Source: a virus
Length of the DNA: 54,108 bases
IMG/VR virus record: IMGVR_UViG_3300043395_001550
Coordinates: 1 to 54,108 of that record
Strand: one strand, 5' to 3'
Below the pieces are notes generated by a model. That model had not been told where the DNA came from. It worked only from the letters and a program-made list of their open reading frames with translations, and ran no database searches. Positions 2,392-47,712 of the stretch are shown piece after piece. A program made the position numbers and the translations under genes. Position 1 is the stretch's first letter. The number at the start of each line of letters is the position of its first letter.

Positions 2392-3354
2392 TTAGATTAG
2401 ATACCAATTGTCCTTAGTTGAATTGTAATGTAGATGCAATGTAGAATTGATGGGCAGAGAAAATGATGAGTAACTTATTCCATCGATTATAAGACTTTTG
2501 CCGTTCCCATCAATTGTAATGTCTGCTGTGTATATATTAGAGATCCAATGACTTTCATTTGAAATTGGGAATAGTGGCATTACAACTGTCGTTGCACTAT
2601 CAACATAAACTATATTCTCAGAAACAGCAACATTATGAGATCCTGCGTCTGCTATTACTGAAGAAATACGCTCAGCAGAAGTGGAGGGAATCCACTTCCC
2701 CTGCGCAGCATTATATACTAACGTATCACCATCTTGTGGTGCAGATGTATTTAGATTTACATCATCAAGTTCTTTAAGGAGAACAGATCCACCGCCACCA
2801 AGAGAACTTAGTTGTGCCTGAACTCTACTTTTGAACAGCGTGTAATCATCGGATAGTTCGTCAATATCATCAAATTTCCTTGTTACTGGAGTTAAAGGAT
2901 CCTTTGCCGAAATAGCATCCTGAATCTTAACAACAGATTCGTAAAGTTTTTCATCTATTTTGTTTTCGGGTTCATCAAAACCATAGTCATCCGCAATATC
3001 ACTTATAATCTTAGAAATATCTTCACATACATGCTTATCGGGTATTGTATAAAGTGGTGTCGAATTTATATTATTTCTATGTAATTCTGGAACTGGATCT
3101 GGAGTTGTGTTCGGAGTAGTTGATTTTTTGATAGAAAGTGATTTATATTTACTAAGATATTCATCAATAGAGTGCCCCTCAACAACAGCATTATTGGATT
3201 TATTACTTTTTACAATATCACTATAGATGTCATACTCTTTGGGTGCAGCACTTTTAATGCGGCCATGGTCAGGTGTGTTTTTGGTTTTTTTCTTATTTTG
3301 TGATGCAATCTTCCGATAAGATTCTGCAATATTTTGAAGATCTCCAGCATCCAT
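2392..3354 (-). CDS. Fibre-like structural protein (320 aa)
   Basis: The N-terminal 130 residues are Lys/Ser-rich and look disordered. From about residue 195 the protein carries the linker module LKELDDVNLNTSAPQDGDTL followed by a W-I-P-S-T motif; this LDDVxL...DGxxLxYxxxxxKWxP pattern is common in phage fibre and neck proteins. The C-terminal 100 residues form a beta-rich head-like domain. A late promoter (GATAAATA, 3394-3401) lies 40 nt upstream. Likely a minor fibre; position in the virion unknown. Confidence 0.65.
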   Translation of the reverse strand: MDAGDLQNIAESYRKIASQNKKKTKNTPDHGRIKSAAPKEYDIYSDIVKSNKSNNAVVEGHSIDEYLSKYKSLSIKKSTTPNTTPDPVPELHRNNINSTPLYTIPDKHVCEDISKIISDIADDYGFDEPENKIDEKLYESVVKIQDAISAKDPLTPVTRKFDDIDELSDDYTLFKSRVQAQLSSLGGGGSVLLKELDDVNLNTSAPQDGDTLVYNAAQGKWIPSTSAERISSVIADAGSHNVAVSENIVYVDSATTVVMPLFPISNESHWISNIYTADITIDGNGKSLIIDGISYSSFSLPINSTLHLHYNSTKDNWYLI

Positions 3355-6480: not shown

Positions 6481-6702
6481 TCAATCTGGCACAAAGACCG
6501 TACCAGTCTTGGGAAGTTCCCGATGCTTCTTAATAAATTTTTTCGCTTGAAGTTCCGTGTTCACAGTTTCAAGTTGTTGTCCATCAAAGATGATCATGTA
6601 CTGCTTCTTTCCAAAAGGAACTGCAGCGTATCCGTCTTTAGTCACAAATCCCTTTGCAGATCCGTGATAGAAGTTGTAAGCATCGCGATAAACATCTGCC
6701 AT
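6481..6702 (-). CDS. Small hypothetical protein (73 aa)
   Basis: ATG 6702 begins MADVYRDAYNFYHGSAKG; it falls 1 nt after the prs stop, which suggests coupled translation. Contains a beta-rich KKQYMIIFDGQQLETV stretch. Function unknown; co-transcribed with prs. Confidence 0.55.
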   Translation of the reverse strand: MADVYRDAYNFYHGSAKGFVTKDGYAAVPFGKKQYMIIFDGQQLETVNTELQAKKFIKKHRELPKTGTVFVPD

Positions 6703-6703
6703 T

Positions 6704-7663
6704 TTAGTTGTCAAACATACTACTCATAGAAACCTCTTGATGAATTCTAGAAATTCCTTCACCAAGAACATTTGAAATTGACAGCACCTGTAAATTGCTG
6801 AAATTCTTTTCGACCGGGACTGGAAGAGTGTTTGTAACAATCACTTCTTCAAATACTCCAGGAATAGACAGTCTTTCGGATGCTGGATACGAAAATACTG
6901 GATGTGTTGCACACGCTAGAACTTTCGTGGCACCTCTTTCCCGCAATAGTTTTGCTGCTGCAGAGATTGTTCCTCCCGTATCAATCATGTCATCGACCAG
7001 AATTGCCACACGATCCCTTACATCACCAATCACAGTCAGAGACTCTACGATGTTGTGTCCAGGACGACGTTTATCTACAATTGCAAGTGGAGCATTATTA
7101 AGAATCTTGCTGAAAGAACGTGCTCTTGCAACACCACCCACATCGGGAGATACTACCACAATATTATCTAAATCAGATTCATATTTGGTCTTAATGTATC
7201 GTGCAATTGTGGGTGCTCCATATGTATTATCACAGGGAATATCAAAGTATCCCTGTAACTGAGCAGAGTGAAGGTCCATCGAAACAACACGATCCGCTCC
7301 AGATGAGGTAAGAATGTTGGCAACCAGTTTAGCAGCAATCGATTCTCTTCCTGCTGCCTTTCTGTCAGATCGAGCATAACCAAAGTAAGGAATGACTGCG
7401 GTAATTTCTTTCGCAGATGCCCTACGGCAAGCATCAATCAAGATCAACAATTCCATCAAATTGCTATTAGCAGGAGAGCAAGTTGATTGAACAATAAAAA
7501 CGTTGCAACCACGAACTGCGGAATTCACCTGAACATATGTTTCACCATCAGCAAATGTTTTGATGATTCTGGGAGTCAGTTCAACATTCAAGTACCGCGC
7601 AATTTCTTGCGAAAGTTCTACACTTGCGGTTCCACTAATCAGGCGAAACTTATCATTAATCAT
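6704..7663 (-). CDS. prs: Ribose-phosphate pyrophosphokinase (PRPP synthetase)
   Basis: 319 aa, normal length for a class I enzyme making PRPP from ribose-5-phosphate and ATP. Motifs: PYFGYARSDRK (92-102), the RPPK signature region VVSMDLHSAQLQGYFD (126-141), SPDVGGVARAR (172-182), and the PRPP-binding loop LVDDMIDTGGT (222-232). ATG 7663 is chosen for the family start MINDKFRLISG and an upstream GGAG; longer in-frame starts add unrelated sequence. PRPP feeds purine, pyrimidine and NAD synthesis. It lies near a LOG-family gene (8129-8680) that could supply ribose-5-phosphate. Confidence 0.93.
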   Translation of the reverse strand: MINDKFRLISGTASVELSQEIARYLNVELTPRIIKTFADGETYVQVNSAVRGCNVFIVQSTCSPANSNLMELLILIDACRRASAKEITAVIPYFGYARSDRKAAGRESIAAKLVANILTSSGADRVVSMDLHSAQLQGYFDIPCDNTYGAPTIARYIKTKYESDLDNIVVVSPDVGGVARARSFSKILNNAPLAIVDKRRPGHNIVESLTVIGDVRDRVAILVDDMIDTGGTISAAAKLLRERGATKVLACATHPVFSYPASERLSIPGVFEEVIVTNTLPVPVEKNFSNLQVLSISNVLGEGISRIHQEVSMSSMFDN

Positions 7664-47035: not shown

Positions 47036-47134
47036 TTATCTCCTGTATACTAGGTGAATTACTGCTGCTAAAAATAATAGGACCACGACCTGTAGTACAC
47101 TCAATTCGCATACTATCGCCATGGGACTGTGCAT
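47036..47134 (-). CDS. Tiny single-pass membrane protein (32 aa)
   Basis: MHSPMAIVCELSVLQVVVLL continues to a basic end HLVYRR: a single transmembrane helix. ATG 47134 overlaps the previous TGA (TGATG) and has AAGGAG upstream, a coupling junction. Size resembles photosystem or exclusion micro-peptides but I find no match. An ATG four codons later is an alternative. Confidence 0.5.
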   Translation of the reverse strand: MHSPMAIVCELSVLQVVVLLFLAAVIHLVYRR

Positions 47135-47310
47135 CAGATTACTCCTTTGTATAGATTTTTCTTGGTCTCACTATCCATCGTTTGAATTGGATGGTAATGA
47201 TTACCACGATAAGAATGTTCTTTAGTATCTACATTTTTATGCCATTCAATAAAATCTTTTTTGGGTGTTTCAGTATCATACCACACACCTCGATAACAAG
47301 CTCTTGCCAT
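47134..47310 (-). CDS. Small YRGVxYD-motif protein (58 aa)
   Basis: ATG 47310 has AAAGGAG upstream. Starts MARACYRGVWYDTETPKKDF; the YRGVxY opening recalls DUF4278 and similar cyanobacterial and cyanophage small proteins. A second similar element SYRGNHYHP follows. Preceded by a 27-bp repeat (47343-47369) shared with the next upstream gene. Confidence 0.6.
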   Translation of the reverse strand: MARACYRGVWYDTETPKKDFIEWHKNVDTKEHSYRGNHYHPIQTMDSETKKNLYKGVI

Positions 47311-47342
47311 GAGAAATACTCCTTTGTGTTTAAACAATAGAG

Positions 47343-47369
47343 CGTTCCTTCAGGTGGCATACTTCCGTT
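47343..47369. repeat. 27-bp direct repeat, left copy
   Basis: Plus strand: CGTTCCTTC, 8 variable bases, TACTTCCGTT. Same length and arms as 47567-47593 (22 of 27 identical). Lies 33 nt upstream of the start at 47310. Confidence 0.8.
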
Positions 47370-47380
47370 ACAGTCAACTA
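47368..47380. repeat. 13-bp inverted repeat, left arm
   Basis: TTACAGTCAACTA on the plus strand, the exact reverse complement of 47545-47557. It contains the stop codon of the 55-aa gene. Confidence 0.85.
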
Positions 47381-47545
47381 AGCGTTATTCCACAATCTCC
47401 ACTCACAGAATTTTGGAGAAAGATCTTTGATCTCTCTAAACAATTCCCGTTCAATTTGTGGAGGATAATTTTTTCCATAAATGCGAATCATTAAAATATT
47501 CGCTTGAGAACAGGAAAGAATAAGTGGGAGTGCGATTTCGAACAT
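47378..47545 (-). CDS. Repeat-bracketed small protein (55 aa)
   Basis: Starts MFEIALPLILSCSQANILMI, a short hydrophobic segment with one Cys, then a charged helical part ending KFCEWRLWNNA. Its start and stop codons lie in the two arms of a perfect 13-bp inverted repeat, and a 27-bp imperfect repeat lies outside each arm. Signal-like N-terminus suggests membrane association. Similar short openings occur in cyanophages (recalled). The layout suggests a movable mini-cassette. Confidence 0.6.
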   Translation of the reverse strand: MFEIALPLILSCSQANILMIRIYGKNYPPQIERELFREIKDLSPKFCEWRLWNNA

Positions 47546-47557
47546 AGTTGACTGTAA
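47545..47557. repeat. 13-bp inverted repeat, right arm
   Basis: TAGTTGACTGTAA on the plus strand, pairing exactly with 47368-47380 around the 55-aa gene. Confidence 0.85.
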
Positions 47558-47566
47558 TGAACGTTA

Positions 47567-47593
47567 CGTTCCTTCTGTCGCCTTACTTCCGTT
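47567..47593. repeat. 27-bp direct repeat, right copy
   Basis: CGTTCCTTC, 8 bases, TACTTCCGTT, 22 nt upstream of the 55-aa gene. A 7-bp hairpin (TTTACTC / GAGTAAA, 47592-47608) adjoins it. The remaining 47609-47712 holds a TATAAT box (47665-47670) but no gene. Confidence 0.8.
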
Positions 47594-47712
47594 TACTCGA
47601 AGAGTAAATGAACGATTGATATTATTTATGTTGAAATGCCAATATTTTTGTAGTATTGGATACAATTATAGTAGCAGATCTATACCAAAATCACAATACT
47701 CCTTAATAAAAT

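Follow-up and report, generated by a model that had tools for sequence, protein, structure and literature searches.

Within the window (the whole 54,108-nucleotide stretch of viral DNA analysed here), a 55-codon gene begins and ends in the arms of an inverted repeat that is itself flanked by two copies of a 27-bp element, which raises the question of what such a nested arrangement represents. The initial annotation had offered an insertion unit, a swappable gene slot, or a 5' RNA element shared by two consecutive small genes. Its coordinates for the ORF, the inverted repeat and both elements were all correct: the 13-bp repeat is perfect (Table 1), the elements lie on the same strand at 47343-47369 and 47567-47593, each with constant arms around an 8-base core, and the window holds no third copy. 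Along the minus strand, a 27-bp element is followed by a repeat arm, the 55-codon gene, the other repeat arm, the second 27-bp element, and a Shine-Dalgarno (SD) sequence with a 58-aa gene. A further conserved block, CGTTCATT, had been overlooked and precedes each element on this strand (47614-47607 and 47563-47556).

Shuffled windows contained a mean of 0.01 matches to the 27-bp pattern, and two matches were found in none of them. A search in related phages had been proposed, and the element was found in 95 other viral contigs; the shuffled windows and this recurrence together rule out a chance repeat. Across the 102 copies listed, among which the window's own are counted twice owing to overlapping loci, the conserved leader consists of CGTTCATT, a hairpin and AACGGAAGTA-N8-GAAGGAACG, followed by an SD and a small gene.

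Tandem glutamine riboswitch aptamers

As judged from sequence and predicted fold, the minus strand carries two glutamine (glnA, RF01739) riboswitch aptamers in tandem, of which the 27-bp elements form the conserved 3' halves (Table 1), and the shared 5' RNA element of the initial annotation is this aptamer. Aptamer 1 scored 44.9 bits against RF01739, above the gathering cutoff of 35. For aptamer 2, a contiguous scan with the same model recovered only the 3' half, at 13.9 bits and below the gathering score, because its 5' half is 190 nt away and the model is unable to span a P2 loop of 190 nt; we therefore call it a split derivative of RF01739 rather than a listed member. In an alignment with the loop left out, all of its invariant core (CGUUCA, ACGGAAGUA and GAAGGAACG) was present, and when its flanks were joined the fold displayed P1, P2 and a short P3, with P1 and P2 in register. 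In the P3 of both aptamers (AGGCGACA in aptamer 1, UGCCACCU in aptamer 2) the first pair is non-canonical and the G-C pair alone is canonical.

Both arms of the inverted repeat begin exactly at the P2 register of the known aptamer. Just after CGTTCA (47563-47558), TTACAGTCAACTA pairs perfectly with TAGTTGACTGTAA, which lies just before the 3' half, and because the two pair between the aptamer halves we read the 13-bp inverted repeat as the P2 helix of aptamer 2 and the gene as its loop. Aptamer 2 almost certainly contains a complete small gene nested in this loop. The last base of the 5' arm is the A of the nested AUG, and the 3' arm starts with the UAG stop codon. The architecture resembles RF01739 in its P1/P2/P3 layout and in the conserved CGUUCA, CGGAAGUA and GAAGGAACG, and differs in having an entire protein gene where the P2 loop is otherwise short. 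In the MFE fold, GAACG-UAA-CGUUC across the spacer can form a competing hairpin incompatible with P1 of either aptamer; the ligand-free MFE prefers this hairpin to P1, which counts against the explanation that we favor below. Outside the junction-pattern set, almost all tandem relatives have a spacer of 3-5 nt.

Table 1. Features of the tandem aptamer locus, in order along the minus strand.
Feature	Position	Strand	Remarks
Aptamer 1, complete glutamine-I (glnA) riboswitch aptamer	47563-47616	minus	Rfam RF01739
Aptamer 1 P1	47614-47610 / 47571-47567	minus	
Aptamer 1 P2 hairpin	47608-47592	minus	
Aptamer 1 core	47591-47567	minus	
Spacer between aptamers, 3 nt	47564-47566	minus	MFE fold
Aptamer 2 P1 5' strand, CGUUC plus conserved A	47558-47563	minus	invariant in alignment
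Aptamer 2 P2 5' arm (right arm of inverted repeat)	47545-47557	minus	13 bp, perfect with 47368-47380
Nested gene, 55 aa, in P2 loop	47378-47545	minus	PHROG 504 family, two invariant Cys
Aptamer 2 P2 3' arm (left arm of inverted repeat)	47368-47380	minus	perfect 13-bp pairing
Aptamer 2 conserved 3' half, CGGAAGUA-UGCCACCU-GAAGGAACG	47343-47367	minus	all single-hairpin invariant positions kept
Aptamer 2 P1 3' strand, GAACG	47347-47343	minus	
Predicted expression platform	47300-47342	minus	suggested by MFE folds of window, L099, L002 and L102
Downstream gene, 58 aa from AUG (MARACYRGVWYD...)	47134-47310	minus	DUF4278-like, PHROG 5049, S-PM2p192 homologue

Recurrence and covariation of the P2 helix

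At the level of sequence, the analysis established the identity of the aptamers, the register of P2, its recurrence in filled and empty form and the covariation of its arms. The gene-in-aptamer arrangement was found in most related viruses checked. Relative L098 has the same P2 arms as the window, whereas L102 (TTACTATCAT/ATGATAGTAA) and L002 (TTACTATC/GATAGTGA) have arms of other sequence in which the pairing is kept by compensated changes; L099 has mismatches in one arm. The covariation that the initial annotation had suggested looking for is thus present, in register, among relatives. In two further relatives (L100 and L101, ~2960-3200) both aptamers are broken, through loss of the 5' half of aptamer 1 and the 3' half of aptamer 2, and the nested and downstream genes are intact.

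At the same locus, isolated T4-like cyanophages have two tandem aptamers (I and II) with 3-5 nt between them, and the P2 of each either is a hairpin or holds a gene. Both slots are empty in S-PM2, so that the gene-free sites sought by the initial annotation do exist; aptamer II alone is filled in S-SM2, S-H38, S-RIM2, S-MS29, ACG-2014d, SynMITS9220M01 and DSL-LC02, and both are filled in Syn9 (gp196, gp197), S-IOM18, S-CAM1, S-TIM54, P-HM1, P-SSM4, S-SCSM2R, Sf-FR1, Sf-CH3 and Sf-CH11. A clean empty/filled pair is provided by aptamer I of S-RIM2 and S-IOM18 (L108 and L112), where identical P2 arms enclose a 38-nt loop-hairpin in the former and a 66-aa gene in the latter. Among the matches listed with a clear state, in a set fetched regardless of P2 length, a gene occupied 83 of 91 copies of aptamer II and 36 of 112 copies of aptamer I. 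A tblastn search detected homologues of the aptamer II gene in 269 phage records, the architecture being checked in the fetched ones only, and relatives of the 66-aa aptamer I gene in 62. The latter gene, found for instance at 1793-1993 of the Sf-FR1 locus (L104), is unannotated in several deposited genomes (Sf-FR1, Sf-CH11, Sf-CH3). In P-SSM4 the tandem glutamine aptamers are closely preceded by a manA RNA (RF01745, 184 bits; L120 371-556).

The T4-like phage aptamers score about equally on the RF01739 and RF01704 models and mostly fall under both Rfam cutoffs (S-SM2 29.8 and S-PM2 24.6 bits, below the RF01704 cutoff of 33); because of these scores, the ligand of most T4-like relatives is a presumed one. 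No gene-holding aptamer was reported by the Rfam scan among those tested.

To each of 471 aptamer 3' halves we assigned the nearest upstream CGTTCA, a rule blind to pairing. The resulting P2 lengths were under 50 nt in 192 cases, 60-69 nt in one and 140-239 nt in 278, a split to be read as two modes with a gap and not as a frequency, since part of the sample was fetched with a long-gap pattern. All but one of the 278 long loops (277) contain an ATG-to-stop ORF fitted to the helix; in an earlier selection a fitted ORF was present in 238 of 254, compared with 7% after shuffling of the loop middle. The P2 arms covary across 150-230 nt. For aptamer II, the observed values were 0.98 at pair 4 (0.73 expected) and 0.89 at pair 5 (0.61 expected), and for aptamer I 1.00 at pair 3 (0.83 expected) and 0.67 at pair 4 (0.37 expected), each above every one of 1000 shuffles; when the arms were slid past each other, the in-register position yielded the most pairs. 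Among 84 disjoint sister pairs, changes on both sides left the bases paired 17 times and unpaired five times. Changes on one side that disrupt a pair are frequent at pair 4 of aptamer I and at pair 6, so strong constraint is confined to the base of P2, and pairs past position 5 are loose in many relatives.

A nested gene fitted to the RNA

The substitution pattern shows the nested 55-aa gene to be real and, by this measure, under selection at the protein level: dN is ~0.07 and dS 1.4-2.0 when the window type is compared with L102 or L100. The dN/dS of distant aptamer II pairs (0.59) includes poorly aligned sequences and was not relied on. Relatives of the 55-aa protein were found in five viral contigs and L002. 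It matches PHROG 504 with E = 0.004 (1e-30 for Syn9 gp197), and the alignment of the nested-protein family contains two invariant cysteines. An AlphaFold model (pLDDT 84.6) predicts a two-helix hairpin with C12 and C47, for which no PDB match was obtained at E<=0.001; PADLOC and Pfam searches with the protein were empty. Lenient single-linkage clustering placed all but one of the nested proteins together, and we drew no conclusion on common descent from it.

Start and stop codons are fitted to the RNA in relatives as well. Most nested starts are 4-5 nt from the P2 base, which places the AUG within the helix or next to it. Stop codons are located in the 3' arm (the UAG in UAGGA) or, often, inside the conserved core (the UAA in AAGUAAG, or the UGA/UAA in GACURAAGG), and in most relatives the conserved WDAND end of aptamer II proteins results from in-frame reading of the core GGGACGCAAACGACUGA. 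For aptamer II genes the inter-aptamer linker usually supplies an SD-like GGAG, and no SD-like sequence was seen near the aptamer I genes or the window gene. A -10-like box adjoins the upstream side of aptamer I in 68% of cases (7% in shuffled sequences), which makes a very short leader probable for the first nested gene.

Against synonymous shuffles that kept the protein, the codon usage and the arms, the MFE of the nested-gene RNA had a mean z of -2.92 for 105 genes of aptamer I and -2.79 for 129 of aptamer II, and reached -5.62 for the window-type gene, compared with -0.83 for random coding windows of the same contigs and -1.59 for downstream genes; the whole window RNA fold gave z = -6.2. 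These shifts show that the nested coding RNA is, to judge from its predicted folds, selected to fold. The downstream-gene RNA likewise folds more than average, a point against the explanation that we favor.

A proposed switch between two genes

In the MFE folds of the window, L099, L002 and L102, CUCU pairs with AGGAG (the SD) when the aptamer is unformed, and the 8-base aptamer core UGCC(A/G)CC pairs with the start (AUGGCA) of the 58-aa gene; the z-scores of these folds (-2.6, -2.1, -1.4 and 0, respectively) make this platform suggestive only. In the mechanism that we propose, the aptamers would bind glutamine and the two genes would be controlled reciprocally. The nested gene would be translated co-transcriptionally, ahead of the 3' half of the aptamer, and a ribosome located there would hold aptamer 2 open. 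Once the ribosome had left, the gene RNA would fold back and close P2, and with glutamine bound the aptamer would form. Closed P2 would bury the nested start codon and turn the nested gene off, while formation of the aptamer would withdraw UGCCACC from the SD and start of the 58-aa gene and turn the downstream gene on, so that a single aptamer would regulate the two genes oppositely. Glutamine riboswitches are known as ON switches (PMC6698751), in keeping with the proposed freeing of the downstream start.

On the minus strand at 46926-46890 of the window, a terminator hairpin (CGGGGGTCTTGACAACCCCCG followed by a T run) has a -35 box (TTGACA) in its loop and TATACT 17 nt further on, and an overlap of terminator and promoter nearly the same as this one occurs in L002 (~1366-1402).

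Discussion

The explanation that we consider probable is that the locus contains tandem glutamine riboswitches in a cyanophage operon, with a gene as the P2 loop of aptamer 2 and the switch mechanism proposed above. Further points against it are the non-canonical first P3 pair in both aptamers, the low Rfam scores of most T4-like relatives, the looseness of P2 past position 5 and the loss of parts of both aptamers in L100 and L101. A mobile mini-cassette, i.e. an insertion element ending in 13-bp inverted repeats and flanked by duplications, would share with this explanation the perfect inverted repeat, the outer direct repeats and the empty sites, but the sequence of the repeat differs from lineage to lineage and covaries, with arms fixed at the base of P2, and the 27-bp repeats are aptamer halves that in the 95 other contigs mostly have no gene between them. 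Moreover, the unit has no transposase or recombinase, and its slot is occupied by the same gene family across relatives. We give this reading hardly any credence. The insertion-unit option of the initial annotation falls with it, as the arms of its inverted repeat are the P2 helix of aptamer 2, and the swappable gene slot survives only in the new sense of a P2 loop that can be a gene or a short hairpin, not as a mobile unit. An insertion sequence or MITE was also rejected, as the terminal repeats are not fixed (the arms differ at the same site) and the window holds no other copy.

Two further readings accept the RNA structure and dispense with sensing by aptamer 2. The gene could be a compact insertion in an aptamer that no longer senses glutamine, with P2 acting only as a start-codon hairpin that limits nested translation; L100 and L101 retain both genes despite their damaged aptamers, and the well kept P2 pairs are only the first five or so, both of which fit. 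Arguing against such an insertion are the invariance of the entire 3' core and P1 strand, which lie 164 nt beyond the start codon and occur in almost all relatives, and the selection on the complete ORF RNA to fold; we consider it unlikely. Translational coupling without any ligand, in which CGUUCA...GAACG and P2 would form a long mRNA hairpin timing three small genes, draws on the divergence of the relatives' aptamers from both Rfam models and on the ORF stop codons inside the core, but aptamer 1 scores above the Rfam cutoff and aptamer 2 shares all invariant core positions, which leaves it highly improbable. Returning to the tandem riboswitches, a stronger version, in which the nested-gene ribosome and glutamine compete for one aptamer, so that the RNA reads both translation and nitrogen state, drives two genes oppositely and is kept across most T4-like cyanophages, may hold, although we advance it only tentatively.

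Aptamers are usually regarded as non-coding and compact. Structured RNAs with an ORF in a peripheral stem-loop are represented by group I and group II introns and HEARO-type RNAs. These are self-splicing or mobile and their ORF encodes an endonuclease or a reverse transcriptase, whereas the host here is a predicted metabolite sensor and the guest a helical protein of 50-70 aa; group I introns are treated in a review (PMC3984707). Tandem glutamine riboswitch copies are already known (PMC2864571, PMC9481103), the survey in PMC9481103 having left out cases with intervening ORFs or gaps >300 nt, and cyanophage glnA matches are listed in PMC9964418. The glutamine-II (Downstream-peptide) RNA, RF01704, is located in marine cyanobacteria ahead of small-protein genes (17-100 aa; PMC2864571). 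Its peptide is encoded after the aptamer, whereas in the present locus one peptide lies within the aptamer and a second one follows it. In the open-access literature searched, we found no earlier report of a gene inside an aptamer. At the sequence level, the case for a new architecture of a known riboswitch class is strong.

The gene-holding form was absent from 386 cyanobacterial genomes searched with two patterns, the single match being L329, an Oscillatoriales MAG that was also the only match of one pattern over 84,980 species genomes and whose long candidate P2 has no ORF. At 6590-6791 it has a glutamine-I aptamer core, a complementary CGTTCATCCCTC arm at a distance and an ORF-free insert of 150 nt, a reading made uncertain by a nearer CGTTCA, without a hairpin, that is also present.

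In the architecture described here an aptamer helix has as its loop a protein gene whose start and stop codons consist of helix or core nucleotides and whose coding sequence is selected to fold. Abundant marine viruses commonly have this nested design, which contiguous covariance-model scans do not see, and therefore such designs may be missed elsewhere. It would also provide a testable link between the nitrogen state of the host and the expression of phage genes.
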